Positions 1 through 25,911 of a DNA stretch of 38,924 nt are shown here, piece after piece; position 1 is the first letter of the stretch, and the number at the start of each line of letters is the position of its first letter. Below the pieces are notes generated by a model. That model made no database searches, was not told where the DNA came from, and saw only the letters and a list, made by a program, of their open reading frames with translations. The position numbers and the translations under genes are program-made. Where the stretch lies: positions 1 to 38,924 of the IMG/VR virus record IMGVR_UViG_3300034374_003578, one strand, 5' to 3'. The stretch is from a virus.

Positions 1-2
1 AA

Positions 3-80
3 AAGAAAGATAAAGCTATTAAAGAGCTTAGAAAACTCTGTAAAATAAGAAAAGAAAAACGCACATATATTGTAAATTAA
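3..80 (+). CDS. C-terminal remnant of a gene entering from the left edge
   Basis: Only the last 25 codons of an open frame that enters from the left edge are present, ending in TAA at 78-80. The encoded tail is rich in Lys and Arg (for example KELRKLCKIRKEKR), as in a basic C-terminus. It is the only one of the three forward frames that stays open to base 77; the other two stop by base 48. No start, domain or function can be read, and because the segment is short and A-rich the open frame could be chance. Confidence 0.35.
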   Translation, partial: KKDKAIKELRKLCKIRKEKRTYIVN

Positions 81-82
81 AT

Positions 83-112
83 TTTAAGTAACTATGGTAG
101 TGTTTATGTTTG
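83..112 (+). promoter_or_regulatory. candidate Bacteroidota-type promoter
   Basis: TATGTTTG at 105-112 matches the Bacteroidota -7 box TAnnTTTG. TTTA at 83-86 lies 18 bases upstream, where the -33 TTTG box is expected, with one mismatch. Transcription would begin near 119 and run through the long hairpin at 122-194 into the 215-490 gene. The -7 match is good but the -33 match is imperfect, and the sequence is AT-rich, so chance is possible. Confidence 0.35.
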
Positions 113-121
113 CTAACGGTT

Positions 122-194
122 TGGCTAAGAAGCGTAGCCACGTAATCACGCTTCATTAAAACACAAAAAGTCGCATGGCTATGCTTTTTAGCTG
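122..194 (+). other. long imperfect hairpin, attC-like
   Basis: Bases 124-140 pair with 176-192 in an uninterrupted 17-bp stem containing two G-T wobbles (at 129/187 and 134/182). Two more wobble pairs extend it outward to 122/194. The loop is 35 bases. Inside it, GAAGCGT (129-135) can alternatively pair with ACGCTTC (148-154). The hairpin sits immediately before the GTTGTGTGC box at 197-205. A long stem with a GTT-type box outside it is the general architecture of integron attC sites, but the strict consensus GTTRRRY is not met. It could instead be a structured leader RNA. Confidence 0.5.
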
Positions 195-195
195 T

Positions 196-210
196 TGTTG
201 TGTGCAGTAC
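196..210 (+). repeat. left arm of inverted repeat flanking the first small gene
   Basis: TGTTGTGTGCAGTAC. Its reverse complement occurs at 490-504 with a single mismatch (14 of 15). The two arms lie just outside the 215-490 coding region, like cassette boundaries. Confidence 0.75.
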
Positions 211-214
211 GGTT

Positions 215-490
215 ATGATATTAAAATGTTATTTAGTAAATGATAATGGAAATAAGTATGCAATATTTAATGAAATGATGGAGATAGAAGGGGAATTTTC
301 TCTTGCCTGTTTAAACGACTTTCTAAATTATTACGCTGAACCTGACTGTGATTCGCTTGATGAGATAGACATACCTAATGACGGGTGTAGTTATCATTAT
401 GAAATTGAAGCAGAATTACAGGAGTTTGGTACAGGTGTCGGGATGGATTCAAATATTGCATATGAAATTGTCGGCTATACTCGATTGTAG
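215..490 (+). CDS. small acidic protein of unknown function
   Basis: A 91-aa protein if started at the ATG at 215. A GTG at 200 would add five residues (MCSTV) but lies inside the inverted-repeat arm, so the ATG is preferred. The protein is acidic and rich in Asp, Glu, Asn and Tyr (for example AEPDCDSLDEIDIPND), with no membrane segment and no recognised domain. It stands alone between the arms of a 15-base inverted repeat (196-210 and 490-504), which would fit a single-gene cassette. No function is assigned. Confidence 0.6.
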   Translation: MILKCYLVNDNGNKYAIFNEMMEIEGEFSLACLNDFLNYYAEPDCDSLDEIDIPNDGCSYHYEIEAELQEFGTGVGMDSNIAYEIVGYTRL

Positions 491-504
491 TATTGCACAC
501 AACA
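490..504 (+). repeat. right arm of inverted repeat flanking the first small gene
   Basis: GTATTGCACACAACA, complementary to 196-210 at 14 of 15 positions. The arm starts on the last base of the stop codon of the enclosed gene. Its GCACACAAC end mirrors the GTTGTGTGC of the left arm. Confidence 0.75.
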
Positions 505-526
505 TAGGAATCAAATTAACTAAATC

Positions 527-775
527 ATGAAAAAGGAAACATGGGTGCTTAGACCCGAAACTAAAAAGGATGAAGTAAAGTACGTTAGAGGTGCATTGTA
601 TCAATTTGACGACGGTTTTTTTATCGGCTCAGACCAACACAGTAAATACATTTTGGTTTGCTTAAATAATGGAGTGCAATACGATGACCCAATGAATAAG
701 GCAGACCTTGAGAGAGCCATGAATGAAGACGGGGTAGTAATGGTATCAGAATCAATCAAAATCGAGATGCTATGA
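527..775 (+). CDS. small phage protein of unknown function
   Basis: An 82-aa protein beginning MKKETWVLRPET. The start follows an A-rich leader with no Shine-Dalgarno sequence, as usual for Bacteroidota. It looks like a compact mixed alpha/beta protein (alternating beta segments such as KYILVCLNN) with no cysteine cluster or membrane segment. Its stop overlaps the next start as ATGA (772-775), so the two genes are probably translationally coupled. Function unknown. Confidence 0.6.
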   Translation: MKKETWVLRPETKKDEVKYVRGALYQFDDGFFIGSDQHSKYILVCLNNGVQYDDPMNKADLERAMNEDGVVMVSESIKIEML

Positions 776-1056
776 GTGATAATGAATTAAAGAAACTGGC
801 TGTGTATATAGTAGAAGAACTAACTAAACCCAATGAAGATTTTATCGATGGACTGGGTTTTCATTTAGCTTTCTTTGATATTAATCAATTCAGTGAGTAC
901 GAGATACTACAGGTTAGCCACGAGATAAAACAGTTAAACAAGCTGTTGGAGAATAGTATCACTAATGAGAACTATGAGACATCGTCTATTCTTTTCAAGA
1001 AAATAAAGCAACTAGAAAAAGAGCGTGATATACTAGAGAAGAATAAAAAAAAATAG
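772..1056 (+). CDS. small coiled-coil protein of unknown function
   Basis: A 94-aa protein whose start overlaps the preceding stop by four bases. The second half is strongly helical and charged, with heptad-like spacing (HEIKQLNKLLEN, then KIKQLEKERDILEKNKKK), suggesting a coiled coil and oligomerisation. No catalytic motif is visible. It is probably in the same transcript as the gene at 527-775. Confidence 0.6.
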   Translation: MSDNELKKLAVYIVEELTKPNEDFIDGLGFHLAFFDINQFSEYEILQVSHEIKQLNKLLENSITNENYETSSILFKKIKQLEKERDILEKNKKK

Positions 1057-1099
1057 AAGAAAAAGGATTGTAAAAGCTGTCTAATCAAAACTAGAAACA

Positions 1100-1441
1100 A
1101 TGAGTAAAGAAAAAATGACGGCCGAGGAAATAGCACAATGGGCTGTTGATAACAGACACTCAAAGGGTGAGGGAAGAGATAAGTCAGACCATGAAATCTA
1201 CCATCATCTAAGAGATTCAATCGAAGCCTACGCTCAACAGCAACCTCGGTGGGTAAGTGATGAGGAGATTGATAATTTAGCTTGGGATGAAAAAGATGTT
1301 GTGGGAGCAATGAAAGCGGTGCGCGACCTCATCTTCAACGGTGAGAAACGGGATGAGGTTTGCGACCACCCGTTCTTTTATGTACGAAGTAAATGCGATG
1401 GCGAACTGAACCATTGTCTAAAATGTGGCGAGTATTTGTAG
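1100..1441 (+). CDS. small protein with C-terminal zinc-binding-like cysteines
   Basis: A 113-aa protein. The N-terminal two thirds is acidic and helical (EEIAQWAVDNRHSKGEG, then EEIDNLAWDEKDVVGAMKAV). The C-terminal 30 residues carry Cys and His spaced like a small zinc site: CDHPF, one internal Cys, then H-C-L-K-C-G. The final CxxC-G is typical of a zinc knuckle. Bases 1436-1443, which include the stop codon, form TTGTAGCA, repeated downstream in both orientations. Function unknown; DNA or protein binding is only an inference from the Cys pattern. Confidence 0.6.
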   Translation: MSKEKMTAEEIAQWAVDNRHSKGEGRDKSDHEIYHHLRDSIEAYAQQQPRWVSDEEIDNLAWDEKDVVGAMKAVRDLIFNGEKRDEVCDHPFFYVRSKCDGELNHCLKCGEYL

Positions 1442-1518
1442 CAAACCGTGGGTGAACGAACCGCTAAATGCGGCTGTGTGGCAACTATTGTTGTAGCATC
1501 GTTTTAATGTGCTACAAC
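1436..1518 (+). repeat. hairpin-rich spacer with repeated TTGTAGCA
   Basis: TTGTAGCA occurs at 1436-1443 and again at 1491-1498, with its reverse complement TGCTACAA at 1510-1517. Bases 1490-1498 and 1510-1518 form a perfect 9-bp stem (GTTGTAGCA with TGCTACAAC) with an 11-base loop. A second small hairpin, CCGC-TAAAT-GCGG, lies at 1461-1473. No T-run follows the stems, so these are not simple terminators. The GTTGTAGC/GCTACAAC boxes parallel the GTTGTGTGC/GCACACAAC boxes near base 200. Confidence 0.6.
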
Positions 1519-1544
1519 TTCATTTACTAAAAGAATATAATGAA

Positions 1545-1697
1545 ATGAAATACAAAGTATTATCATACAATAAAGAGAGAGCTGGTGTTAGGGTTGATTA
1601 TATAAATACAAGGTCTGAAGATGAGGCTTACATAGCGATGAAAGAACTTTATCCTAGTCGTCATATTTTTAATATTACATGCATCGACAATCTCTGA
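1545..1697 (+). CDS. 50-aa protein of unknown function
   Basis: The start at ATG 1545 gives MKYKVLSYNKERAG. The reading frame is open back to 1509, but that upstream part overlaps the hairpin arm and lacks protein character, so 1545 is chosen. The product appears to be a small alpha/beta protein with a DEAYIAMKELYP helix near the middle. Short A-rich leader, no Shine-Dalgarno. No family recognised. Confidence 0.5.
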   Translation: MKYKVLSYNKERAGVRVDYINTRSEDEAYIAMKELYPSRHIFNITCIDNL

Positions 1698-1702
1698 TTT
1701 TG

Positions 1703-1760
1703 AAAAGTGTAAAGTTAGGTAGATATAATAATACTATATATTAGCTATATTTACACTTTT
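1703..1760 (+). terminator. 11-bp inverted repeat, possible bidirectional terminator or operator
   Basis: AAAAGTGTAAA at 1703-1713 and TTTACACTTTT at 1750-1760 are perfect reverse complements separated by 36 AT-rich bases. Because one arm ends in TTTT and the other begins with AAAA, the structure could terminate transcription in either direction. It lies between the 50-aa gene and the 233-aa gene. An operator role is the alternative. Confidence 0.45.
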
Positions 1761-1777
1761 AAACCTTACTTAAACCA

Positions 1778-2479
1778 ATGATACCAAACAGAAAGATAAA
1801 ATGGTTGTGGGATAAAAGAATCGTTACCACACGATACCCCATAACAGATAAGCCAACCAAAACATTCAACTGGGGTTGGTTCTACGAACAGGGTACATAT
1901 GAGTACTACTCCCTGTTTCGATCTCCACACATGATTAAGACCCCTAACGGGTTTTCTTGGCATCTTCGAGTTCTTCATCACCTAAACGATTTTAGCTACG
2001 ATGAACTAGTCGAGGTGGCTAACTTCATTGCGTGTAAGAGAAATGGATTCACCGCATCACATATAAACAACAAAACAAGGGATGACATCATCACTAATTT
2101 ATGGAATGACAAAAGTGGTAACGCACCTGAGAATAGACTTAGAAAGGTTATATTTAAGGTTGGGTGTGGATTAGAGCAACACGAGAAAAGAAGTATCATA
2201 GGGCAACTAATAGGTCGCAGTAGTCGTATTACTACTGACGATGTTATTGATTGTGCGCATCTTATTAGTGAGTCAAATAAGAAGGTAACTATAAGTGGTA
2301 TAAGTCGTAGCCTTGGTTGTTCAAGGGTATTTCTTTACGACATAATGGATGAGGACATAAGAGAGCAGATACATCGTCTAAATGAAGATTTAAACGATGA
2401 AAAGCTACAGCGAAAAAAGCTATCTAAGATACAAGAAGGATGCACTGGAAAGTCAGCCAATATTCAAGCATTGGGATGA
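1778..2479 (+). CDS. phage protein with C-terminal HTH-like segment
   Basis: A 233-aa protein. The N-terminal half is rich in Trp and other aromatics (KIKWLWDKR, FNWGWFYEQG) and matches no family I can name. Around residues 168-190 the segment KVTISGISRSLGCSRVFLYDIM reads as a helix-turn-helix, with helix, turn (LGCS) and recognition helix, followed by a charged helical tail. The tail overlaps the downstream sigma-factor gene by 83 bases in another frame. Position directly before a sigma factor fits a DNA-binding regulatory role, but this is inference. Confidence 0.65.
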   Translation: MIPNRKIKWLWDKRIVTTRYPITDKPTKTFNWGWFYEQGTYEYYSLFRSPHMIKTPNGFSWHLRVLHHLNDFSYDELVEVANFIACKRNGFTASHINNKTRDDIITNLWNDKSGNAPENRLRKVIFKVGCGLEQHEKRSIIGQLIGRSSRITTDDVIDCAHLISESNKKVTISGISRSLGCSRVFLYDIMDEDIREQIHRLNEDLNDEKLQRKKLSKIQEGCTGKSANIQALG

Positions 2480-3137
2480 GTACACAAGGGATGAACTTAT
2501 AATCAAATTCCTACCACTAGTTGAGAGTATATCTAGGTCATTTAATTCAAGTGACATGTCCTCTGGGATTCTTGACATGATGGATCTGATCCAGTATGGT
2601 TCCATCGGTCTAGTGTCAGCCGTGGATAAGTTTGATGTGGAACTGTGCATGTCTAAGCCAGACCCTGAAAAAAGCATCAAGTCCTTCTTGGCTAAAAGAA
2701 TTAAGGGAGCAATAAGGAGGGCCATCGATAATAATCGTGGAACCATGAAGATTACCGAGTATAGACAGAACGAGATTAGAAGAACAAAGGAGGGTGTTGA
2801 GTTGATATTCAATAGTATATTCAAGAGCATAGATGCACACGACTCTAACGGTTCCAACCAGTTCTATAACATACCAGAGATTAACAAGACGTTCAACGTG
2901 GAGATACTTAATAGATACCTACTGTCTATCATGAAGAATGTTTTAGATACCGAAGAATACCACATCGTCAGAATGTTCTATGGTCTGGACTGTCGAAAAC
3001 GTAGCGCAAAAGAGATAGCTAGTGAGTTAGGTATTAGTGGGAACAACAGCAACGTGAAGGTATCCACGATAAAGAAAGCAGCTATAGATAAATTAATTAA
3101 TAAAATAAATCCTGAAATTGTTTTGGGGTTAATGTAA
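2397..3137 (+). CDS. sigma-70 family RNA polymerase sigma factor
   Basis: A 246-aa protein. Residues about 33-112 match sigma region 2: ELIIKFLPLVESIS, then DLIQYGSIGLVSAVDKFD, the core-binding signature equivalent to DLIQEGNIGLMKAVEKF, followed by a basic stretch KRIKGAIRRAI. Residues about 180-235 match region 4: LDTEEYHIVRMFYGLD, then the HTH SAKEIASELGIS and TIKKAAIDKL. The protein would recruit host core RNA polymerase to phage promoters. The ATG at 2397 lies 83 bases inside the upstream gene; no later Met precedes region 2, so the overlap seems real. A promoter lies near its 3' end (3122-3151). Confidence 0.85.
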   Translation: MKSYSEKSYLRYKKDALESQPIFKHWDEYTRDELIIKFLPLVESISRSFNSSDMSSGILDMMDLIQYGSIGLVSAVDKFDVELCMSKPDPEKSIKSFLAKRIKGAIRRAIDNNRGTMKITEYRQNEIRRTKEGVELIFNSIFKSIDAHDSNGSNQFYNIPEINKTFNVEILNRYLLSIMKNVLDTEEYHIVRMFYGLDCRKRSAKEIASELGISGNNSNVKVSTIKKAAIDKLINKINPEIVLGLM

Positions 3138-3151
3138 TTTGATTACATTTG
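3122..3151 (+). promoter_or_regulatory. Bacteroidota-type promoter for the replication operon
   Basis: TTTG at 3122-3125 and TACATTTG at 3144-3151 are separated by 18 bases, an exact match to the Bacteroidota housekeeping pattern TTTG...TAnnTTTG. The -33 box lies in the last codons of the sigma gene. Transcription would begin near 3157-3159, giving a leader of about 95 bases before the ERF gene at 3253. Confidence 0.7.
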
Positions 3152-3162
3152 TATTCATAAAG

Positions 3163-3239
3163 GTCGCAACCAAAATGAAATTTAGTATACTACAACTAAG
3201 CCTTGGTAGAGTTTGCGACTCTCTACTGGGGCTTTTTTT
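3163..3239 (+). terminator. leader terminator hairpin with possible antiterminator partner
   Basis: Hairpin arms AGCC (3199-3202) plus GTAGAG (3206-3211) pair with CTCTAC (3221-3226) plus GGCT (3230-3233), followed by a T-run to 3239: a rho-independent terminator reading rightward. Its loop contains TTGCGAC (3213-3219), exactly complementary to GTCGCAA at 3163-3169 just after the promoter, so an alternative fold or pseudoknot is possible. A 10-base palindrome TAGTATACTA lies at 3183-3192. It either ends the sigma transcript or attenuates the replication operon. Confidence 0.7.
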
Positions 3240-3252
3240 AAACCATTAAACC

Positions 3253-3798
3253 ATGAAAAAGCTAAACGAAAAGCTTAAGGAAATTCAAGTTAATTTCAAG
3301 AGCAAGAAGAGCCGATACAATAGTTTCGGTAAGTATAACTTCAGGAGCGCTGAGGATATACTTGAGGCAATCAAACCATTTTTAGTAGAGATGAACTGCA
3401 CGGTTCGTGTAAACGAGGAGTTTATACATTCTGATGTTCCAATCATTAAGTCTACGGCTATTATCACAGATGGTGAGGAATCAATCAGCGCAAGTGCTAT
3501 CGTTGGTGTTGACCTAAACCAAAAGGGTATGCAGACCCCACAACAATTTGGTTCCGCATCGTCTTATGGAAAGAAGTATGCGCTTGGTAATCTACTGTTA
3601 ATTGACGACACCCAAGACTCAGATGCCACCAATGACCACGGTAGGGGATCACAAAGCAAGCCTGAATTAAAGAAGGGTAGTAAGGCTTATGAAGCTGCGG
3701 TTAAGTATCTATCTGAGGGTAACAGCATTGAAACAATAAAGCTTAAGTACAGCCTCTCTGAGGACGTTGAGAAGCAGTTAATGACCGACCACCTATGA
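3253..3798 (+). CDS. ERF-family single-strand annealing protein
   Basis: A 181-aa protein with the ERF (essential recombination function) signature. The N-terminal GKYNFRSAEDILEAIKPFL (about residues 26-44) and the core GSASSYGKKYALGNLLLIDDTQDSDA pattern (about 100-125) match the family's G-S-x3-Y-x-K/R-Y-x-L...D-D hallmark. These proteins anneal complementary single strands and promote phage recombination and genome circularisation or concatemer formation. The next gene, which starts four bases before this stop (ATGA), encodes a RecE-like nuclease, and an SSB follows: the usual phage recombination set. First gene after the leader terminator. Confidence 0.85.
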   Translation: MKKLNEKLKEIQVNFKSKKSRYNSFGKYNFRSAEDILEAIKPFLVEMNCTVRVNEEFIHSDVPIIKSTAIITDGEESISASAIVGVDLNQKGMQTPQQFGSASSYGKKYALGNLLLIDDTQDSDATNDHGRGSQSKPELKKGSKAYEAAVKYLSEGNSIETIKLKYSLSEDVEKQLMTDHL

Positions 3799-4529
3799 AT
3801 AAAGATGAAGCCGTTGCTAGACTAAAGAACGATGAGGATTACTACGGTGATTTTGGTAGCCAATACCTATCCAATAGTAACATCGACAGTCTACTAAACA
3901 ATCCACTTGCGTTTAAAGACAAGCCTGAGCAGACGGCCTCTTTCTTAGTTGGTGGGTACCTACACACAGTCATACTAGAGCCTCATAAGCTGAATAAGTA
4001 TAAGATAATTGATTCATCATCAAGAAACACTAAAGCTTACAAGGAGATGTCAGGCGGTGAGTTGTGTCTACTACAGCATGAGGTGGACAAGATTGATTTG
4101 ATGAAGCAAAGGATTATAGACAACGAAGTATGCGCTCAGCTGATTAGAACTGGTGATGTGGAGTACGAGGTGCCGAACATCGCCAAGATTGGATCTAATA
4201 TTTGGAAGGGTAAGGCCGATGTGCTTAACCATGACGATAAGATGATTATTGATATCAAGTCTACGAGTAACATATCTGCGTTTAGATCATCTGCGTACAG
4301 ATATAACTACGACAGTCAGGCCTACATCTACAGTGAGTTATTCCCTGGCTATTCCTTTGTATTCATGGTGATTGACAAGAACACGTTGCAGTTGGGTCTT
4401 TATGACTGTAGTGAGTCGTTTTTACAAAGCGGAATGGACAAGGTGGAGAGGGCTAACCTTAATTACGATTTATTTTTTAAGCTAGGGGAGACCGACCCTA
4501 GTCAATTTCTAACAACAGAAACACTTTAA
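3795..4529 (+). CDS. RecE-like PD-(D/E)XK exonuclease
   Basis: A 244-aa protein resembling the C-terminal nuclease domain of exodeoxyribonuclease VIII. Visible motifs: GGYLHTVILEP with His57 and Glu62, GKAD with Asp142, IIDIKST with Asp153 and Lys155 (the D-x-K core), and YDSQAYIY with Gln175. The expected role is 5'-3' resection of duplex ends to give 3' single strands for the ERF protein encoded just upstream. Start overlaps the ERF stop by four bases, implying coupled translation. Catalytic residues look intact. Confidence 0.85.
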   Translation: MNKDEAVARLKNDEDYYGDFGSQYLSNSNIDSLLNNPLAFKDKPEQTASFLVGGYLHTVILEPHKLNKYKIIDSSSRNTKAYKEMSGGELCLLQHEVDKIDLMKQRIIDNEVCAQLIRTGDVEYEVPNIAKIGSNIWKGKADVLNHDDKMIIDIKSTSNISAFRSSAYRYNYDSQAYIYSELFPGYSFVFMVIDKNTLQLGLYDCSESFLQSGMDKVERANLNYDLFFKLGETDPSQFLTTETL

Positions 4530-4541
4530 ATTTTATATATT

Positions 4542-4853
4542 ATGGCAGGAATTATTAAAGGTACTATCAATCTATCAGATATCCCTAAGGATAAAATTAT
4601 TGATGGTAAAAAAGGTAAGCTTATACCTATTACAATCACAGTAAAAGATGAGCTTGACAACTTCGGCAACCAAGGTCCTATTATTGTATCACAATCAAAA
4701 GAAGAGCGTGCTGCAAAAGAAGCAAAGACATATCTTGGTAACGTAAAGGTTGTTTGGACAAACGGAGAGTTTCCACAACCAGCACCACGCGAAGATCAAC
4801 CTCAACCACAAGCTAAAAAGCAAGTAGTACAAGAAGACGATCTACCTTTCTGA
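4542..4853 (+). CDS. SSB-like single-stranded DNA-binding protein
   Basis: A 103-aa protein with a beta-rich N-terminal two thirds (KLIPITITVKDELDNFGNQGPIIVSQS), a Pro/Gln-rich linker, and the C-terminal tail VQEDDLPF. An acidic tail ending in D-x-P-F is the partner-binding tip of bacterial and phage SSBs. It is shorter than a canonical SSB (about 150-180 aa) and the OB fold is only inferred. Location between the exonuclease and the primase-helicase supports the call. The stop TGA shares its last base with the next ATG (TGATG). Confidence 0.75.
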   Translation: MAGIIKGTINLSDIPKDKIIDGKKGKLIPITITVKDELDNFGNQGPIIVSQSKEERAAKEAKTYLGNVKVVWTNGEFPQPAPREDQPQPQAKKQVVQEDDLPF

Positions 4854-6568
4854 TGAATAAAATAGAGTACACCGAAATTAATGGTTATACGATTGAAGAG
4901 TTTAATCGTTATGGCCTTGAAGTTGGTAAGACGCAGGGGATTTGCCCCCTGTGTTCTGCCGACAGAAAGCCTGAAAACCGAAAAGCCAAGTGTGCTTCCT
5001 ATGACTGGGAACGCGGTCTAGGAACATGCCATAACTGCAACACAACATTTCAATTACACACATTCCAAAGAAGGGGGGAGGTAACCAAGGTATACACAAG
5101 ACCAGAGCCTATCACTGAATTGAGCATAGGCACAAAGGTAGAGCAGTGGTTTGCTTCTCGTGGAATTAGCAAAAGAACCCTCAATGACTTAAAAGTTACT
5201 GAGGGTTTTGAGTATATGCCCCAACTTGGTAGGGAGGTTAATACCATACAATTCAACTACTACATTGGTGGGGAGTTGGTTAACGTCAAGTATCGGGATG
5301 GTCATAAAAACTTCAAGCTATACAAGGGCGCTGAAAAGGTGTTCTATAATACAGACTCATTAGTTGGTCACAACACGGCCATTATTGTTGAAGGTGAAAT
5401 GGATGTTTGTGCTTTGTATGAGTCAGGTATGAAGAATGCGGTTAGCGTTCCCAATGGGGCCACCCTAACAAATAACAATCTTGATTACCTTGACCACTGC
5501 ATTGAATACTTTGATGACAAGGATCGTATAATTCTAGCCTTAGATCAGGATGAGCCAGGCCAGGCCCTACAAGCTGAATTAATTAGGAGGCTTGGTGCTG
5601 AGGTTTGTTGGATTGCAGATTTTGATGACTGTAAGGACGCTAATGAATACCTGATTAAGTATGGCCGTGAAGAATTGGTGGCTAGAATTAATAAGTGTAA
5701 GCCAGTTCCTATGGAGCATGTGGTGACATTTAAAGACATAGAGGAAGAACTGAGGGACTTTGTCCTGAATGGGTTTAAGCCAGGCTATCAGATTGGTATT
5801 GAAAGTTTTGACAAGATATTCAGTACATACACTAGTCAGTTTATTACAGTTACTGGTATACCAAGTAGTGGCAAGAGCGACTTTGTGGACATGATGTGTG
5901 TCGGATATAATCAGAACTATGGTTGGAAGATTGCGTTTGCGTCCCCTGAAAATCATCCTACGTTTCTTCACGCCCATAAGCTAATGCGTAAGCTGTGGGG
6001 TGATATGCCATCGTCTAGAGACTTTGACAATGAGAAATGGGTTGAGGTATCTGAACGGTTGAACGATGACTTCTTCTTTATTGACATGGATAAGTATACC
6101 CTAGAGTCTGTATTAGCTAAGGGAGCTGAATTGGTGAGGCGTAAGGGTATTAAGTGCTTAGTCATTGATCCATTTAATAAAGTAAGGAGCCAAGAGTCTC
6201 AGTCAGACGTAAATGTCTACACTATGGATTACCTATCAAAGATTGAGGTCTTTGCTAAAAAGTACGATGTGTTAGTCATTGTTGTAGCACACCCAACCAA
6301 GATGTACAAAACACCTGATGGTCAGATGGAGGAGCCAACAATGTACAACATTAAAGGTGGTGGCGAGTGGTATGATGCTAGCTATCATGGCATACTGGTG
6401 CATCGTGATTACCAAGCGAAAACAGTGAAGGCTAAGGTGCTGAAGGTTAAGTTTCAAAACCTTGGTGAGAATGGTGCTGAAGCGCACTTTAATTGGGACT
6501 GGAGAAGCGGAAGATTTGATCCCATCAGGGAAATTGATACTACAATGCCATGGGAAATAGATGCCTAA
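4853..6568 (+). CDS. bifunctional DNA primase-helicase, T7 gp4 type
   Basis: A 571-aa protein with three parts. (1) A zinc ribbon with Cys31, Cys34, Cys59 and Cys62 (CPLC...CHNC). (2) A TOPRIM primase domain with IIVEGEMD (Glu180) and ILALDQDEPG (Asp231, Asp233). (3) A RecA-like replicative helicase with Walker A GIPSSGKSD (335-343) and Walker B CLVIDPFN (Asp439), plus a C-terminal VVAHPTK segment resembling helicase motif H3. The length matches T7 gp4 (566 aa). It unwinds the fork and lays down primers. A DNA polymerase partner is not in the window. Confidence 0.93.
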   Translation: MNKIEYTEINGYTIEEFNRYGLEVGKTQGICPLCSADRKPENRKAKCASYDWERGLGTCHNCNTTFQLHTFQRRGEVTKVYTRPEPITELSIGTKVEQWFASRGISKRTLNDLKVTEGFEYMPQLGREVNTIQFNYYIGGELVNVKYRDGHKNFKLYKGAEKVFYNTDSLVGHNTAIIVEGEMDVCALYESGMKNAVSVPNGATLTNNNLDYLDHCIEYFDDKDRIILALDQDEPGQALQAELIRRLGAEVCWIADFDDCKDANEYLIKYGREELVARINKCKPVPMEHVVTFKDIEEELRDFVLNGFKPGYQIGIESFDKIFSTYTSQFITVTGIPSSGKSDFVDMMCVGYNQNYGWKIAFASPENHPTFLHAHKLMRKLWGDMPSSRDFDNEKWVEVSERLNDDFFFIDMDKYTLESVLAKGAELVRRKGIKCLVIDPFNKVRSQESQSDVNVYTMDYLSKIEVFAKKYDVLVIVVAHPTKMYKTPDGQMEEPTMYNIKGGGEWYDASYHGILVHRDYQAKTVKAKVLKVKFQNLGENGAEAHFNWDWRSGRFDPIREIDTTMPWEIDA

Positions 6569-6833
6569 ATTAAAGAAGGGTTCTATAATGGGTAAGTATT
6601 ACCCGACTGATGACGAAATGGATGCCGCGATGTGGTGTGTTAAAAACAAAATCAAGATATCACCACTAAAGAAGTCTTTTGCAGAAGACATGTGGTATAT
6701 TGAAATAACACTAAACGGAAAGACGCATAGGTCCCCAGAGTCGTATGGAAAAACTGTTGTATGGGAAAAAATGTATGAGTTCTATCTCTACTACTATAAT
6801 CGATACATAAAAACTATAAATCATGAAGAGTAA
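6561..6833 (+). CDS. small aromatic-rich protein of unknown function
   Basis: A 90-aa protein overlapping the primase-helicase stop by eight bases. An alternative ATG at 6588 would give MGKYYPTDDEMDAAM and avoid the overlap. It is rich in Tyr, Trp and Lys (EDMWYIEITLNGKTHRSPESY, FYLYYYNRY). The ITLNGK...YGKTVVWEKMYEFY pattern suggests a small beta-sheet followed by a helix, vaguely like phage DNA-binding folds, but no family is recognised. It overlaps the start of the following phosphoesterase gene. Confidence 0.6.
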   Translation: MPKLKKGSIMGKYYPTDDEMDAAMWCVKNKIKISPLKKSFAEDMWYIEITLNGKTHRSPESYGKTVVWEKMYEFYLYYYNRYIKTINHEE

Positions 6834-7995
6834 ATATAAGAAGTACATAAAGGAGATACAGCAAATCAGAAAGGACACTGGTTATGGGTCTGATAAGATA
6901 GCTGAGTTAATTGCCTCCTCACATCCAGAGGATAATATTTCAATATCCTCACTGGGTAGGGCTATTAGGAGATTCCAAATGATTGAGCCGTCCATTGTTG
7001 ATGAGTCGATGCATAGGAACAATCTAAACCCAAGCGACAATTGGAAGTTATCTTGGATCAAGGACAAGGTGACTGGCACATCAACACTAGTGGTCAACCC
7101 TGACTACAAGAATGCCGAAGCCATTAACTACGATCAAATCCGAAAGGACATGATTAATGAGATGAAGGATCTTGCCCCACATGTAGACAGGTATAAGCGT
7201 AAAAAGATAACCGATCCTCACTGTTTAGTGTTAGATATAGCCGACCTACACATTGGTAAGCTTGCAACAATGGATGGGTCAAATGATAAGTACGATGTGA
7301 GCCTGGCCATTGATAGGGCAATTAAAGGTAGCTTAGACCTTATAGATAAATCAAAACCATACAACATAGATAAGGTATTTTTTATCATAGGTAATGATGT
7401 TCTTCATATCGATACACCAAAAAGAACTACCACATCAGGCACACCGCAAGACACTGATGGTATGTGGTACGATAACTTTAAGATTGCTAGGGGTGTTTAC
7501 TGCCACATAATTAATGTGTTATCTACCATATCTGACGTACACGTTATCCACTGCCCATCAAACCATGACTACATGACTGGGTTTATGTTAGCTGACGCAG
7601 TGAACTGTTACTTCTACAATAACAAGAACATAACCTTTGACGTTAGTAACGTGCATCGTAAGTACACAAAGTATGGTAGCAATCTATTAATGTTCAGTCA
7701 TGGTGACGGATGTAAGATTGATCAGATACCTTATCTAGCAGCACATGAGGAGCCAGCGATATGGGCAGGAACAAAGTACAGATACAGCTATCTTCACCAC
7801 ATACACCATAAGGACTACTTCAAGTTCAGAAGCGGTAAGGACTATATCGGAATGACGGTGGAGTATATGCGCTCCCCAAGTGGAACAGACAGGTGGCATA
7901 ACGATAATGGATACACAGGGTCCAAGGTATCTATCGAAGCGTTTATACATCACCCTGACAATGGACAGGTTTGTCGATTGACGCATAACTTCTAG
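6823..7995 (+). CDS. calcineurin-like metallophosphoesterase with N-terminal HTH-like region
   Basis: A 390-aa protein. Metal-binding motifs in order: DLH (Asp141, His143), GND (190-192), NHD (247-249), SHGD (His293) and HHIHH (325-329), the full Mre11/SbcD-type phosphoesterase signature. The first 55 residues (SDKIAELI...SISSLGRAIRRFQM) look like a small helix-turn-helix, suggesting DNA targeting. A nuclease or DNA-end-processing role is likely from its place after the primase-helicase; phosphatase activity on another substrate is the alternative. No capping or ATPase partner (SbcC) is nearby. Confidence 0.85.
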   Translation: MKSKYKKYIKEIQQIRKDTGYGSDKIAELIASSHPEDNISISSLGRAIRRFQMIEPSIVDESMHRNNLNPSDNWKLSWIKDKVTGTSTLVVNPDYKNAEAINYDQIRKDMINEMKDLAPHVDRYKRKKITDPHCLVLDIADLHIGKLATMDGSNDKYDVSLAIDRAIKGSLDLIDKSKPYNIDKVFFIIGNDVLHIDTPKRTTTSGTPQDTDGMWYDNFKIARGVYCHIINVLSTISDVHVIHCPSNHDYMTGFMLADAVNCYFYNNKNITFDVSNVHRKYTKYGSNLLMFSHGDGCKIDQIPYLAAHEEPAIWAGTKYRYSYLHHIHHKDYFKFRSGKDYIGMTVEYMRSPSGTDRWHNDNGYTGSKVSIEAFIHHPDNGQVCRLTHNF

Positions 7996-8001
7996 TTGAT
8001 A

Positions 8002-8142
8002 ATGAATAAATGCTTACTTTGCGGAAATAAAATATCCATCGGGCTGAAAACCAGCAAGGTGTGTTATGAGTGTTTATCGGGGCATAAAAAAACAAATAAA
8101 GCAAGTAATTATGATACTCACCGCAATAAAAAAAATCCTTGA
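8002..8142 (+). CDS. 46-aa zinc-ribbon protein
   Basis: A short gene starting MNKCLLCGNK. Cys4-x2-Cys7 and Cys21-x2-Cys24 (VCYECLSGH) form a treble-clef or zinc-ribbon pair. The rest is Lys/Asn-rich, suggesting nucleic-acid contact. It lies between the phosphoesterase stop and the next gene, overlapping the latter by 32 bases. Supported by the paired CxxC motifs and by filling what would otherwise be a gap. Similar mini zinc proteins are common in phages; the target is unknown. Confidence 0.65.
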   Translation: MNKCLLCGNKISIGLKTSKVCYECLSGHKKTNKASNYDTHRNKKNP

Positions 8143-8311
8143 CAACCAACAGGAAAAGGGTCTGAAAAAATACGGTAAAACCGTTGACCAAGCAGATTTA
8201 TCCACTGAAGAATGGTTGGTACATACGCAAGAGGAATTAGCGGATGCGCTGATATATCTTGAGTGCATCAAGAGAAAAATCCAAGATGATAAGACGAAAA
8301 AAGAGAAGTAA
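8111..8311 (+). CDS. small MazG-like / nucleotide pyrophosphohydrolase-like protein
   Basis: A 66-aa protein from ATG 8111. An ATG at 8066 would add 15 residues inside the zinc-ribbon gene and is less likely. The pattern KGLKKYGKTVDQADLSTEEWLVHTQEELADALIYLE matches a short phage family related to MazG-type all-alpha pyrophosphatases: a helix with E-E-L-x-D-A-L-x-Y that could hold one metal-binding pair. A complete MazG active site needs a second acidic pair, which is not obvious here. Neighbouring nucleotide-metabolism genes support the role. Confidence 0.6.
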   Translation: MILTAIKKILDNQQEKGLKKYGKTVDQADLSTEEWLVHTQEELADALIYLECIKRKIQDDKTKKEK

Positions 8312-8750
8312 AAAGAAAGGGCCAGTAAGGGCGAGACAGGTTGTTCACGATGGTATTAAGTTTGCATCTGGGCTGGAGAGGCATATGTATATAGCCTTAA
8401 AGAAGGCAAAGATTAAGGCTCTTTATGAGGGTGAGACGTTTACCCTTGTTGATGGGTTTATGTTTGACTCTTCATCGTATGAACGTCAATCTAATGGTAA
8501 GGGAGACATGATAGATAGAGGCAATAAAAATATTCTCCCTATAAAATATACGCCCGACTTTATTGGTGACGGATTTATAATTGAGTGTAAGGGTAGAGCA
8601 AATGAAAGCTTCCCAATGAGATGGAAGATGTTTAAAAAATATGTCAATGATAATTTAACTGGTGTCACACTATATAAACCACAGAATCAAAAAGAGTGTG
8701 ATGCTGTTGTAGAACTAATAAAACAAAAAAGAAATGAATTGGGAGATTAG
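8286..8750 (+). CDS. DUF1064-type PD-(D/E)XK endonuclease
   Basis: A 154-aa protein from ATG 8286; a TTG at 8259 in frame is less likely. The very basic N-terminus (MIRRKKRSKKKG) precedes a nuclease fold with SGLE (Glu31), YTPDF (Asp91) and IIECKGR (Glu100, Lys102): the D-x(8)-E-x-K core of the PD-(D/E)XK superfamily. The closest family I recall is the phage DUF1064 group, thought to act as structure-specific endonucleases, for example on branched DNA. It overlaps the previous gene by 26 bases. Confidence 0.8.
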   Translation: MIRRKKRSKKKGPVRARQVVHDGIKFASGLERHMYIALKKAKIKALYEGETFTLVDGFMFDSSSYERQSNGKGDMIDRGNKNILPIKYTPDFIGDGFIIECKGRANESFPMRWKMFKKYVNDNLTGVTLYKPQNQKECDAVVELIKQKRNELGD

Positions 8751-8868
8751 CTTTGGATTGTATCCTGGAATATTAATAGGATTTAGATCATATAATGAAG
8801 AAGATCATTCAACACATGTATTATATCTTCCATTTATAGATATTGCACTTACATTATTTAACGACTAA
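8734..8868 (+). CDS. 44-aa protein before the ribonucleotide reductase small subunit
   Basis: A short gene starting MNWEISFGLYPGILIGFRSY and ending in TAA at 8866-8868. The stop shares its last base with the next ATG (TAATG), the coupling style seen elsewhere in this genome. It overlaps the nuclease gene by 17 bases. The product is hydrophobic and beta-prone (HVLYLPFIDIALTLF) but has no clear membrane helix. It exactly fills the gap before the reductase gene. Function unknown. Confidence 0.65.
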   Translation: MNWEISFGLYPGILIGFRSYNEEDHSTHVLYLPFIDIALTLFND

Positions 8869-9827
8869 TGGGATTATTTACACCTAGAATAGAATATAAA
8901 CCTTTTGAGTATCCTGAGTATTACACGGAAGGTTGGCTGAAGCAGGCGCAAGCGTTTTGGCTACATACAGAAATATCAATGTCTGGTGACGTTAAAGACT
9001 GGCATGAGAACTTAACATTGTCAGAGAAAAATTTAGTAGGTAATATCTTACTTGGCTTTGCGCAGACTGAATGCGCTGTATCTGATTACTGGACACAGAA
9101 AGTTGTGTCATGGTTCCCAAAGCACGAGATACAGCAAATGGCTATGATGTTTGGTTCGCAAGAAACAATACATGCAGTGGCATACTCTTATTTAAATGAA
9201 ACACTTGGATTAAACGACTTTAAAGCATTTTTACATGAAGAGGCAACGGCAGATCGCTTTAACAATCTTGTGGCTTATGACGGCAATGATACTGTGGGCA
9301 TCGCTAGATCGCTGGCAATATTTAGCGCATTCGCAGAAGGTGTATCACTGTATAGTGCTTTCGCTGTTCTTTATAGTTTCCAGCTCCGCAACCTTCTCAA
9401 AGGAATAGGTCAGCAAATGAAGTGGAGTGTTCGAGATGAGTCTCTTCATAGTCGCATGGGTTGTAAACTGTTTAATCACATGTGTTCTGAAGATGAAACT
9501 TTAAGATCAAAGGTTATGGACGATGTTATTGCCGCGGCTGAAACAATGATTGAGCTTGAGCATAAATATATTGATAAGATGTTTGAGATGGGTGATCTTG
9601 AAAATCTAAAAGCTGAAGATCTTAAAAACTTTATTATCAAGCGAACAAATGAAAAGCTACATGAACTTAACTATGATTATGGTTTTGATTATGACGCTGA
9701 GTCAGCTAAACAGCTTGACTGGTTCTACCATTTAACTGGTGGACATACGCATACAGATTTCTTTGCTATTAGACCGACTGATTACAGTAAGGCTAATGAA
9801 GGGGAAGACTTTAACGATATCTGGTAA
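8868..9827 (+). CDS. nrdB: class I ribonucleotide reductase, small (beta) subunit
   Basis: A 319-aa R2 protein that holds the metal cofactor and generates the radical for NDP reduction. Ligands seen: GSQETIH (Glu99, His102), AFAEGVS (Glu157), RDESLH (Glu191, His194). The radical Tyr position is occupied by Tyr106, four residues after the ETIH histidine. At the first ligand position the motif appears to be QTE (Glu68) rather than the classical Asp. The C-terminus is acidic (NEGEDFNDIW), as expected for the tail that docks on the large subunit. It shares one base with the next gene (TAATG). Confidence 0.93.
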   Translation: MGLFTPRIEYKPFEYPEYYTEGWLKQAQAFWLHTEISMSGDVKDWHENLTLSEKNLVGNILLGFAQTECAVSDYWTQKVVSWFPKHEIQQMAMMFGSQETIHAVAYSYLNETLGLNDFKAFLHEEATADRFNNLVAYDGNDTVGIARSLAIFSAFAEGVSLYSAFAVLYSFQLRNLLKGIGQQMKWSVRDESLHSRMGCKLFNHMCSEDETLRSKVMDDVIAAAETMIELEHKYIDKMFEMGDLENLKAEDLKNFIIKRTNEKLHELNYDYGFDYDAESAKQLDWFYHLTGGHTHTDFFAIRPTDYSKANEGEDFNDIW

Positions 9828-10147
9828 TGCCACTTAAGTTTAAATGTACCGAGTGTGGCGCATGCTGTAGGTTGGTAGGTATGTCAACAATAGAACATAA
9901 CCTGCCAGTAAGAGATGATGGTTCGTGTGGATATCTTGTAGATAATAAGTGTTCTATATATGATGACAGACCAGATTATTGCAGGGTAGATAAAATGGGA
10001 TTTAATTATGCTGGATTAGATAGGATTGAATACTATAAAGAATCAAACAAGGCTTGTAATAAATTAATAGACTATCTTGGTCTTGATGAAAAGTTTAAAA
10101 TAGATTATGAAAGAGAGTACACTAATAGAGATGCAGAAGAAGATTGA
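9827..10147 (+). CDS. YkgJ-family cysteine-cluster protein
   Basis: A 106-aa protein with the family hallmark CxxCxxCC near the N-terminus (Cys7, Cys10, Cys13, Cys14) and further Cys34, Cys42 and Cys52 (the CSIYDDRPDYC stretch). YkgJ/UPF0153-type proteins are predicted to bind zinc or iron or an Fe-S cluster. Placement between the two reductase subunits suggests a role in metal supply or maturation of the reductase, but that is inference. Start shares one base with the R2 stop. Confidence 0.85.
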   Translation: MPLKFKCTECGACCRLVGMSTIEHNLPVRDDGSCGYLVDNKCSIYDDRPDYCRVDKMGFNYAGLDRIEYYKESNKACNKLIDYLGLDEKFKIDYEREYTNRDAEED

Positions 10148-10337
10148 GTCACTGACTCGATTGATGCAGCACATTCTTAATGAACAGCAAAGATTAACCG
10201 AAATGTCAGTGGGTACACTTGAGCTGATCAAGCTTATGCCTGATTATGATAAAGCCTTGGAGGATCTGAAAGAAAAAAACTTAGAAGAACTAAAAAATAA
10301 TAAGGAGAATGTCGAGTCACAAGTGGGTGAAGGGTGA
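10131..10337 (+). CDS. small coiled-coil protein between reductase genes
   Basis: A 68-aa protein from ATG 10131 (MQKKIESLTRLMQHILNEQ). An upstream in-frame ATG at 10107 would extend it by eight residues into the cysteine-cluster gene. It is almost wholly helical with heptad spacing (SLTRLMQHILNEQQRL; ALEDLKEKNLEELKNN), indicating a coiled coil. It overlaps both neighbours (17 and 29 bases). Function unknown; possibly an adaptor in the nucleotide-metabolism cluster. Confidence 0.6.
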   Translation: MQKKIESLTRLMQHILNEQQRLTEMSVGTLELIKLMPDYDKALEDLKEKNLEELKNNKENVESQVGEG

Positions 10338-12030
10338 GGACTACCCTAAATGGGCAGACTCAGATGTATACAAGAAAACTATAGGTGGAGGGTATCTACT
10401 CAACGGTGAGACACCAAGGGATGCTTATTGGAGGGTTGCTAAAACAGTGGCTTCTCATCTTGAGCGACCCGAAATGGCTGACAGGTTCTTTGAGTATATA
10501 TGGAATGGATGGCTTTGTCTAGCCTCACCAGTGCTATCAAATACGGGGACCACAAGGGGTCTACCTATTAGTTGTTTTGGTATTGATGTGGCAGACTCGA
10601 TTGCAGACATAGGCGGTAAGAACCTAGAAATGATGTTGTTAGCTAAACATGGTGGTGGTGTTGGTGTAGGTATCAACCAGATTAGACCATCAGGATCTAA
10701 CATAAAGGGTAATGGAACGTCTGACGGAGTTGTTCCGTTCTGTAAGATTTATGACTCAGCAATACTAGCCACCAACCAGGGTTCGGTTCGAAGAGGAGCT
10801 GCATCCGTTAATTTAAACATCGAACACGATGACTTTGAGGATTGGTTGGAGATCAGGGAGCCAAGGGGTGATGTGAATCGACAGTCACTTAATCTTCACC
10901 AGTGTGCTGTTGTGGGTGATAAGTTTATGCGTAAGCTACAAGATGGTGACGAAACAGCTAGGCGTAAGTGGAGTAAGCTACTGCAAAAGCGCAAGTCTAC
11001 TGGTGAGCCGTACATTATGTATAAGGGTAATGTCAATAAGCAGAATCCAGACATGTACCGACATAATGGTTTGAAGGTACACATGACAAATATCTGTTCT
11101 GAGATTGTTCTACACACCGATGAAAATCATAGCTTTGTGTGTTGCCTGTCTTCCTTGAATCTAGCTAAGTATGACGAGTGGAAGGGTACCAACCTGATAC
11201 ACGACTCCATTTGGTTTTTAGATGGAGTCCTTGAGGAGTTTATCCAAAGAGCAAAGGGTAAGATAGGATTTGAAAATTCAGTTAGGTCAGCTGAGAAGGG
11301 TAGAGCATTAGGTCTTGGTGTTCTTGGATGGCACACTTATTTACAAGACAAAGGAATACCCTTTGAAGGATTATTAGCACAATATGAAACTAGAAAAATA
11401 TTTTCTCAAATTAAAATCGAAACTGAACGAGCGTCTATGGCGCTTGCTGAGAGCTTTGGGGAGCCACTTTGGTGTTCTGGATCAGGCCTTAGAAATACTC
11501 ATCTACGGGCCATTGCTCCTACTGTTAGTAATAGTAAACTTAGTGGGAATGTTTCTCCTGGTATTGAGCCTTGGGCTGCTAATGTATTTACGGAACAAAG
11601 TGCGAAAGGTACGTTCATTCGTAAAAATCCTTCTTTAGAAAAAGTACTAAAGCTTCATAAGCTTAACACCGATGAGATCTGGGACAAGATACTCAGGGAT
11701 GGTGGTTCAGTTCAAGGTATTGACGAGTTGAATGACATCACTATTGGTAAGTATAAAATACCACTCAAGGAGGTGTTTCAAACATTCAAGGAGATTAATC
11801 AGCTGGAGATAGTCAATCAGGCTGGGATACGACAACAGTACATAGATCAAAGCGTTAGCCTCAATCTAGCGTTTCCCTCAACCGCAACGCCTAAGTTTAT
11901 CAATAAGGTTCACCTAGAAGCGTGGAAGAAGGGTATAAAGACGCTGTACTATGTTCGTACTGAATCTGTTCTCAGGGGAGATATTGCCGATAAGGCTACA
12001 GATGAGAACTGTTTAAGTTGTGATGGATAA
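10309..12030 (+). CDS. nrdA: class I ribonucleotide reductase, large (alpha) subunit
   Basis: A 573-aa catalytic subunit reducing ribonucleotides to deoxyribonucleotides. Motifs: PISC with redox Cys89, NxCxE at Asn261, Cys263 and Glu265 (thiyl-radical site), redox Cys at 278/279 in FVCCLS, radical-path Tyr547-Tyr548 (TLYYVRTES), and a C-terminal CLSC (Cys568, Cys571) for re-reduction by thioredoxin or glutaredoxin. It begins directly in the catalytic region, so it lacks the N-terminal ATP-cone that allosterically limits activity in typical cellular enzymes (750-850 aa). An AAGGAG lies only one base before the ATG, too close to be a normal Shine-Dalgarno site. Confidence 0.93.
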   Translation: MSSHKWVKGEDYPKWADSDVYKKTIGGGYLLNGETPRDAYWRVAKTVASHLERPEMADRFFEYIWNGWLCLASPVLSNTGTTRGLPISCFGIDVADSIADIGGKNLEMMLLAKHGGGVGVGINQIRPSGSNIKGNGTSDGVVPFCKIYDSAILATNQGSVRRGAASVNLNIEHDDFEDWLEIREPRGDVNRQSLNLHQCAVVGDKFMRKLQDGDETARRKWSKLLQKRKSTGEPYIMYKGNVNKQNPDMYRHNGLKVHMTNICSEIVLHTDENHSFVCCLSSLNLAKYDEWKGTNLIHDSIWFLDGVLEEFIQRAKGKIGFENSVRSAEKGRALGLGVLGWHTYLQDKGIPFEGLLAQYETRKIFSQIKIETERASMALAESFGEPLWCSGSGLRNTHLRAIAPTVSNSKLSGNVSPGIEPWAANVFTEQSAKGTFIRKNPSLEKVLKLHKLNTDEIWDKILRDGGSVQGIDELNDITIGKYKIPLKEVFQTFKEINQLEIVNQAGIRQQYIDQSVSLNLAFPSTATPKFINKVHLEAWKKGIKTLYYVRTESVLRGDIADKATDENCLSCDG

Positions 12031-12210
12031 TTAGCGCTTAGAGTAGTAGACGATGGTAACTTTACTGTCGTCTTCTCTAATGTGCTTCACAACTTTACCG
12101 TTATAGTCCCTGTATACAGTTACTTTACTACCAAGCGGATCAATACCGCTTTGACTTGAAAGACAACTGGTTAGAGAGATTGTTAGTATGAAAAAAATTA
12201 ACTTACGCAT
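12031..12210 (-). CDS. 59-aa lipoprotein
   Basis: A short minus-strand gene whose stop abuts the reductase stop (12030/12031). The N-terminus MRKLIFFILTISLTSC is a lipoprotein signal peptide: basic n-region, hydrophobic core, lipobox LTSC with Cys16 followed by LSSQ. The mature part is about 44 residues, charged and beta-prone (VTVYRDYNGKVVKHIRED). It would be lipid-anchored in the host envelope. Phage lipoproteins of this size can serve superinfection exclusion or act as outer-membrane spanins; neither can be chosen from sequence. Last gene of the leftward block, after a gap of about 200 bases. Confidence 0.8.
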   Translation of the reverse strand: MRKLIFFILTISLTSCLSSQSGIDPLGSKVTVYRDYNGKVVKHIREDDSKVTIVYYSKR

Positions 12211-12391: not shown

Positions 12392-12418
12392 GGGTGGTCT
12401 TGATTGGCCACCCTTTTT
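12392..12418 (+). terminator. rho-independent terminator of the rightward block
   Basis: GGGTGGTC (12392-12399) pairs with GGCCACCC (12406-12413) in an 8-bp stem with one G-T wobble and a 6-base loop, followed by TTTTT. It reads rightward and would end the reductase transcript before it runs into the opposing giant gene, whose stop codon begins at 12417. The reverse orientation has no T-run. Confidence 0.8.
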
Positions 12419-23539: not shown

Positions 23540-23562
23540 CTCTTGTTTTTTTCTAGTATAAT

Positions 23563-24246
23563 TTATGGTATATCGTAGATACTAGCCTCTCTTCTATCCG
23601 TCCAATTCTTGTCTGGGTCCGCACCACCAAACAGGCTTCTTACGGCCTTACCTATTCTTCCGAACGAATTGAGAGTAGCCTCCACATCGCCCTCGGCCTG
23701 GTACGCTCTTTCATCAGCAAGCTGCATCTGGTTGGCATAGAAGTCGAGATCTGCATTTGTTCTAGCCTCTTGTGCGCTAAACATGAACTCCATGCCAGCT
23801 GCTTTAGCTGCCTGAACTCTCTGCTGCTCACTAGCCTTCATCTGTTGCAATTGAGCGTCTCCCTGAGCCTTTAATTTAGCGTTATCGGCCTCCTGTTGCT
23901 GTATACTTGCAGATACCTCTCTCTTACTCTGCAATGCAGCCTGAGCGAGTGCGGTTGCGCCACCAGCTCCAGAGCCAGTTGCCCGAAGTGTATCCAATGT
24001 ATTTGCTAATGCAATATCCGTCTGCTCTATCTGCATTTCAGCAGCCTTAGTGGCCACACCAAGATTTGCGTATGGATTATAAAAATCTCCACTTAGGTCC
24101 CTGACAGCAGACGATGGGTCAATAATAGCTTGACGTGAGTCACGAACAGCATTGAGCTGGTCTGTAGCTTGCCTCTGTTGCTCCTCATAGTAAAAGCTTC
24201 TTTCTAGCGCTCGATATAATTCTGCGTATTTTCTTCTTTGTCCCAT
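23563..24246 (-). CDS. coiled-coil internal virion protein (T7 gp14-like in character)
   Basis: A 227-aa protein rich in Ala, Gln and Glu. Long helices (TKAAEMQIEQTDIALANTL; SIQQQEADNAKLKAQGDAQ) flank a Gly/Ala turn ATGSGAGGATALAQAAL, a pattern common in podovirus ejection proteins that form the periplasmic channel, such as T7 gp14. The C-terminal NSFGRIGKAVRSLFGG is amphipathic and could touch membrane. Placed directly after the muzzle genes. Assignment rests on composition and context, not on a catalytic motif. Confidence 0.6.
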   Translation of the reverse strand: MGQRRKYAELYRALERSFYYEEQQRQATDQLNAVRDSRQAIIDPSSAVRDLSGDFYNPYANLGVATKAAEMQIEQTDIALANTLDTLRATGSGAGGATALAQAALQSKREVSASIQQQEADNAKLKAQGDAQLQQMKASEQQRVQAAKAAGMEFMFSAQEARTNADLDFYANQMQLADERAYQAEGDVEATLNSFGRIGKAVRSLFGGADPDKNWTDRREASIYDIP

Positions 24247-24257
24247 CCTCTATGTAC

Positions 24258-25910: not shown

Positions 25911-25911
25911 A

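Follow-up and report, generated by a model that had tools for sequence, protein, structure and literature searches.

The window analysed here is the whole of IMG/VR record IMGVR_UViG_3300034374_003578, which holds 38,924 bases, is classed as linear and is probably a fragment of a phage genome. The plus-strand genes stop at 12,030; from 12,417 onwards the rest of the record is encoded on the minus strand, with a corresponding switch in strand skew. No tRNA was found in a tRNA scan of the window and no family was matched in an Rfam search. The subject of this study is the replication and recombination module at 3253-6568, its primase-helicase in particular, and the relation of this module to the virion genes encoded on the opposite strand.

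Replication and recombination module

The module consists of four genes.

3253-3798, plus strand: ERF single-strand annealing protein (Pfam PF04404, E 2.1e-29; PHROG 155, 2.4e-35)
3795-4529, plus strand: DUF3799/ExoVIII-type PD-(D/E)XK exonuclease, RecE-like (PF12684, 1.6e-21; PHROG 412, 6.5e-29)
4542-4853, plus strand: 103-residue candidate single-stranded DNA-binding protein (SSB) with the C-terminal tip EDDLPF (PHROG 24909, unknown function, 9.8e-07)
4853-6568, plus strand: primase-helicase with zinc ribbon, TOPRIM and RecA-type helicase (Toprim_2, 6.3e-13; DnaB_C, 1.8e-07; PHROG 239, 4.9e-88)

The ERF and exonuclease genes overlap by 4 bases, a gap of 12 bases separates the exonuclease gene from that of the 103-residue protein, and the latter overlaps the primase-helicase gene by 1 base. 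The ERF protein shares 40% identity with P22 Erf and 51% with the protein of Maribacter phage Panino. In the exonuclease, D142, D153-x-K155, Q175 and Y179 are invariant in all eight aligned sequences; the expected active-site residues of this enzyme are thus intact, and its gene adjoins that of ERF, as in a predicted annealing-exonuclease pair. The order sigma factor, ERF, exonuclease, 103-residue protein, primase-helicase is identical in all three other contigs with both early and late blocks, G002, G018 and G011, which were the only ones among 22 IMG/VR contigs tested to combine a window-type capsid with this primase gene.

The alignment of the primase-helicase shows CPLC...CHNC for the zinc ribbon, EGEMD and DQDE for TOPRIM and GIPSSGKS for Walker A. 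Zinc ribbon, TOPRIM and RecA-type helicase lie in one chain, as expected of a T7 gp4-type primase-helicase. A fused protein of this type had been recognised in the initial annotation of the stretch, and Pfam, PHROG 239 and the alignment motifs all agree with it. The same annotation had described the four genes as a complete end-resection and annealing set; ERF, exonuclease, primase-helicase and tight spacing bear this out, but the SSB is a candidate proposed from its EDDLPF tip. Stop-codon recoding in the primase of G011 was considered and rejected, as the apparent in-frame TAG lies outside the open reading frame, which translates without a stop.

The 103-residue protein is called an SSB candidate because its C-terminus reads EDDLPF, the single feature that points in this direction. 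Bacterial SSBs end in this kind of acidic C-terminal tip. The terminal LPF is retained in 11 of 11 homologues, and the acidic-tip pattern was matched by 12 of the 923 open reading frames of 17 genomes or stretches, including the annotated SSBs of Cellulophaga phage phi10:1 and Panino. No SSB family model was matched among Pfam, PHROG and NCBIfam, the fold model failed (pLDDT 45.5), and a PDB sequence search gave no meaningful match; its best hits, to ribosomal eL22 (E 0.006-0.02), were regarded as chance. When the protein was compared by hhalign with four annotated phage SSBs, the alignment was limited to the C-terminal region.

The module is flanked by the following early genes.

2397-3137, plus strand: sigma factor of the sigma-70 family, encoded immediately upstream of ERF (TIGR02937, 60.9 bits against a cut-off of 42.9; Pfam Sigma70_r2, 8.3e-07)
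6561-6833, plus strand: 90-residue protein overlapping the primase-helicase gene (PHROG 5945, unknown function, 0.0011)
6823-7995, plus strand: exonuclease assigned to PHROG 704, 'DNA repair exonuclease' (1.8e-64; G002 homologue 80%)
8259-8750, plus strand: Holliday junction resolvase-like protein (PHROG 190, 1.1e-15)
8868-9827, plus strand: ribonucleotide reductase small subunit (PHROG 86, 6.6e-67)
10309-12030, plus strand: ribonucleotide reductase large subunit (PHROG 84, 2e-151)

The family search detected a sigma factor in 4 of 11 records, all four belonging to the window's clade; the other records, among them the named relatives and two Crassvirales, gave no sigma factor. No DNA polymerase family was detected in the window, G002, G018 and G011 by a search that also failed to pick up the polymerases annotated in Panino and phi14:2.

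Late block and its remote homology to Crassvirales

The minus-strand genes at 12.4-38.9 kb form the late block.

12417-21557, minus strand: giant 3046-residue virion protein (PHROG 22602 virion structural, 3e-22)
24258-25910, minus strand: F, putative split muzzle protein, C-terminal piece (aligned to residues 1050-1280 of crAss001 gp44, the best of 83 targets by hhalign, E 7.1e-08)
25912-29817, minus strand: E, putative split muzzle protein, N-terminal piece (aligned to residues 12-393 of gp44, the best of 23 crAss001 targets by hhalign, E 5.3e-08)
29824-31029, minus strand: D, virion protein adjoining the ring protein (PHROG 13977)
31036-32133, minus strand: C, tail ring (neck) protein, crAss001 gp34 homologue (hhalign E 2.2e-4, top of 83)
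32205-33098, minus strand: B, crAss001 gp33 homologue (hhalign E 1.2e-6, top of 83)
33177-34691, minus strand: likely major capsid protein (PHROG 13704 virion structural, 1.6e-92; hit to the annotated major capsid protein of Calle)
34697-35854, minus strand: A, structural gene between the portal and capsid genes (homologues at the same place in relatives)
35886-38291, minus strand: portal protein (PHROG 6547, 6.9e-150; aligned by hhalign with crAss001 gp20 over 633 columns, E 9.1e-12)
38288-38923, minus strand: terminase large subunit (TerL), C-terminal 211 residues, cut by the record end (PHROG 6681, 5.2e-52; family profile to crAss001 gp19, E 2e-11)

The hhalign profiles were built without Crassvirales rows and compared with 83 Crassvirales proteins (23 crAss001 targets in the case of E). 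Portal, TerL, B, C, E and F each pair best with their crAss001 counterpart and the gene order is conserved; the same comparison with Crassvirales proteins gave no match for the capsid protein, A, D, G and H. Direct tblastn with portal and capsid, and megablast of positions 1-25000, found no match in Crassvirales. The portal protein matches 87 of 50,697 phage records, none of them Crassvirales: apart from MW202828 (Podoviridae sp. ctfjg026, Manatee Spring), which is unplaced, all are phages of flavobacteria. The capsid protein matches 85 phage records of the same circle. The late-block relatives among named phages are MW202828, Panino, Elemovirus (Flavobacterium phages elemoA-F), Callevirus and Baltivirus. 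The initial annotation, given for 3253-6568, spoke of crAss-like neck genes; remote profile and fold matches confirm that such genes exist, but they are located at ~24.2-38.9 kb on the minus strand and not at 3253-6568.

For ring protein C, the fold model (pLDDT 76.5) was searched with Foldseek, which ranks crAss001 ring proteins first. Comparison with the PDB by VIA-align gave Z 12.4 for 7qoj_E, the chain of crAss001 ring protein 4/5 gp34, and 9.8 for the next match, and several crAss-like phage proteins were matched in BFVD. A PDB profile search with the alignment of C gave one chance match only (E 0.6). According to the crAss001 structural atlas, gp34 forms rings 4 and 5 and gp44 is the muzzle (PMC10172136). 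One gp34-like ring protein, C, was recognised in the window, and the adjoining D has no Crassvirales profile match. In contig G010, tandem second copies of C and D were observed at 8870-12208, which might lead to a two-ring tail.

E and F look like two halves of one muzzle protein because E matches gp44 residues 12-393 and F matches the C-terminal part of gp44. The muzzle is a single gene in MW202828, Elemovirus, Calle and phi18:3. It was also found in two genes in G002, G018, G011 and G010, and Panino likewise has two pieces. The giant protein was considered as an RNA polymerase and rejected: a scan for the DxDxD motif and hhalign were both negative, and the polymerases of phi14:2 and crAss001 show the motif. 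The giant proteins of the window (12417-21557) and G018 (17633-26773) are of equal length, 3046 residues, with no BLAST match between them at 1e-5.

The crAss-like resemblance of the late block is real, remote and already known for the neighbouring phages, since two papers describe their relationship to Crassvirales. In the first, phi13:2 is a Crassvirales outgroup with only one ring homologue (PMC10172136), and in the second, capsid and terminase models group Pachyviridae and Pervagoviridae with Crassvirales (PMC9855967).

The primase-helicase cassette and its exchange in Elemovirus

The nearest named copy of the window primase-helicase is that of the siphovirus phi10:1 (42% identity), followed by JQ (38%) and Elemovirus (32%). 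In the primase-helicase tree the window clade forms one group (81/100), and elemoC pairs at 100/100 with Nekkels, a siphovirus of the same family as phi10:1. A single clade for the podoviral TOPRIM copies was rejected (p-AU 1e-42). Pfam detects a BT4734-like domain in the primases of MW202828, Panino and elemoE, a Prim-Pol domain in that of Calle and Toprim in that of elemoC; BT4734-like is one of the AEP families in PMC5862659.

A cassette swap in Elemovirus is the more useful find of this work. The identity between genomes E and C is 99.6% in the first 6215 bases (1-6215) and 92-99.7% over most of the sequence beyond the cassette, which lies at 6211-9183 in E (AEP) and at 6786-9566 in C (TOPRIM). 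About 93 bases at the 3' end of the gene are common to both, and the remaining primase-helicase and the neighbouring replication gene differ. A second unlike stretch comprises part of Erf and an additional endonuclease gene. The upstream flank is at least 99% identical in all 68 Elemovirus records, 63 of which carry the TOPRIM cassette and 5 the AEP cassette; the 68 include RefSeq duplicates, and the five AEP records correspond to three isolates. The public record of the elemoE primase/helicase (6219-8078) notes a TOPRIM domain, but the Pfam search gave no Toprim match there and instead an AEP domain of the BT4734-like type.

The primase-helicase is therefore a swapped cassette and cannot mark lineage, because its type differs even between near-identical Elemovirus genomes; within the window's own clade, swapping would have taken place in a similar way. 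In crAss-like phages DNA polymerases are displaced in place according to PMC7886860, and polymerase displacement with the primase-helicase replaced alongside it in one clade is described in PMC11348598. A literature search, which did not cover the original Elemovirus description, found no account of the Elemovirus primase swap. The Elemovirus isolates, which share one host strain and are near-identical around either cassette, offer a natural experiment on the change of primase type. More generally, replication genes are poor lineage markers in this phage group.

It could be argued instead that the TOPRIM primase-helicase is ancestral to the Elemovirus-Pervagoviridae neighbourhood, was lost or replaced by the AEP type elsewhere and descended vertically in the window clade. 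All four contigs of the clade carry it, and the primase identities fall in the order G002, G018, G011, as do those of portal and TerL. Nevertheless, the copy of the siphovirus phi10:1 stands closer to the window than the Elemovirus TOPRIM copy, and the pairing of elemoC with Nekkels together with the rejection of one clade makes vertical descent an unlikely account.

Placement of the phage and comparison with known systems

Portal and TerL trees were built with 16 and 14 rows, respectively, in which Crassvirales is represented by crAss001, phi14:2 and crAss002 only; the window TerL is the C-terminal 211 residues, and several end branches are long. In both trees a 100/100 branch splits the window clade from these three genomes, so that the window falls outside the Crassvirales clade, and the initial suggestion of a lineage outside the well-known crAss-like groups is upheld. 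The window groups with IMG/VR contigs, as a neighbour of the named flavobacterial phages and not as one of them. In the portal tree the separation of its clade from those phages has moderate support (86/81, 90/81), and the window clade (86/81) lies apart from the pair of Calle and phi18:3 (95/94) and joins neither Pervagoviridae nor Pachyviridae. DNA similarity to Elemovirus at genus level was not found: megablast of window positions 1-25000 against phage records gave no match, and the portal shares 41.5% protein identity with that of Elemovirus.

The trees also bear on a rival reading, by which the phage belongs to Crassvirales and its replication block was lost or replaced. In favour of it, gp19, gp20, gp33, gp34 and gp44 have remote homologues in collinear order, and the class I reductase genes are ~51-52% identical to those of phi14:2. 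This reading is very unlikely, however, in view of the 100/100 split, the giant protein without the DxDxD motif present in the phi14:2 and crAss001 polymerases, and the capsid protein without a Crassvirales match. That an assembly chimera joined the early block of one phage to the late block of another can practically be dismissed, since G002 and G018 show the same block junction, at which the genes of the reductase large subunit and the giant protein converge, both blocks also occur in G011, and the window shows no composition break beyond the strand skew, even if G001 (92% portal identity) itself looks chimeric, as it carries an additional, dissimilar portal and terminase.

G001 is probably a chimeric assembly because its portal and terminase genes are each present twice, in unlike versions; for the same second pair it was dropped as a case of module swap, and it was retained in the portal and TerL trees. 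Exchange between lineages was observed in other genes. The window capsid is 94% identical to that of G002 and 63% to that of G018, and the late genes are closer to G002. For nrdB (8868-9827), by contrast, the identity is 98% with G018 and 85% with G002, and for the SSB candidate (4542-4853) it is 83% and 38%, respectively.

Taken together, these results make it probable that the window represents an unclassified lineage beside Elemovirus, MW202828, Panino, Pervagoviridae and Pachyviridae, outside Crassvirales, in which a divergent crAss-type late block is combined with an exchangeable early replication and recombination cassette. This neighbourhood is a known outgroup of Crassvirales. With at least 598 confirmed portal relatives in IMG/VR, a large phage group is tied to the crAss virion plan. 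The phage is a podovirus that looks lytic, probably of marine origin and with flavobacteria as hosts. A bolder proposal, for which we would give less than an even chance, would make the clade a family not yet described, belonging to a sister order of Crassvirales. Its crAss-type tail would be reduced to one ring and a two-gene muzzle, a sigma factor would replace the crAss virion RNA polymerase, and its primase-helicase would be an exchangeable cassette shared with siphoviruses of the same hosts.

Several points weigh against the placement and cassette reading. The window, G002, G018 and G011 are all fragments. The swap was seen in Elemovirus only, and the window clade keeps one primase type in all four contigs; the primase tree leaves the place of this clade near phi10:1 and JQ open, with T7 as one long branch. 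The capsid protein, A and D have no Crassvirales profile link, so 'crAss-like' does not extend to the whole late block, and the ring fold is widespread, with tail proteins of Pa223, A4 and SU10 scoring Z 8.1-9.8. The SSB remains a candidate with neither family nor fold support. The DNA polymerase negative is weak, since the annotated polymerases of Panino and phi14:2 escaped the same search.

A working scheme may be outlined as follows. The sigma factor would help to redirect the host RNA polymerase, the use of which is suggested by the clade-specific occurrence of this factor and the absence of an RNA polymerase motif from the giant protein. The TOPRIM primase-helicase would unwind and prime DNA for a polymerase, probably that of the host, as suggested by the (weak) failure to find a polymerase family in the four contigs. 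The SSB candidate may coat and protect single strands, the RecE-like exonuclease would resect DNA ends and ERF would anneal them, giving concatemers and fork repair. Concatemers would be packaged by terminase and portal, and resolvase and reductases would supply the remaining functions. The primase-helicase part may be exchanged between host-sharing phages by recombination in flanking homology.

Among known systems, phi10:1 (Assiduviridae) has the nearest named primase-helicase, but its record contains no match to the window-type capsid. Crassvirales (crAss001, phi14:2) share the remote gp19, gp20, gp33, gp34 and gp44 homologues in the same order, but form a separate tree branch. According to PMC7886860, Crassvirales rely on DnaG together with DnaB and on an RNA polymerase of the virion; the window fragment carries a fused TOPRIM primase-helicase rather than DnaG and a separate DnaB. 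Pervagoviridae (Callevirus) and Pachyviridae (Baltivirus) have a homologous late block for the most part, whereas their portals are 34% and 30% identical and the primase of Calle, which also encodes PolA, is of the Prim-Pol type. MW202828 resembles the window in late block order, portal (50%), capsid (49-50%) and RecE-like exonuclease (39%), and differs in its AEP (BT4734-like) primase and one long muzzle gene; a sigma factor was searched for in it and none was found.

Panino resembles the window in Erf (51%), exonuclease VIII, SSB, primase/helicase, reductase and portal (42%), but its primase-helicase is of the AEP type and a DNA polymerase and a tRNA set are annotated. Elemovirus shares late block order, portal (41-42%), Erf, exonuclease, a homologue of the 103-residue protein (37-38%) and, in 63 of 68 records, a TOPRIM primase-helicase; this copy is 32% identical and on another branch, the AEP type occurs in 5 of 68, and no sigma factor was found. 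The gene mix itself, which had been taken as the sign of a separate lineage, loses this meaning, as Erf, 5'-3' exonuclease and primase/helicase are annotated in Elemovirus, Panino is annotated with a similar set, and the primase type swaps. The window phage is a new lineage member whose gene combination is genuine but ordinary among its already known neighbours.

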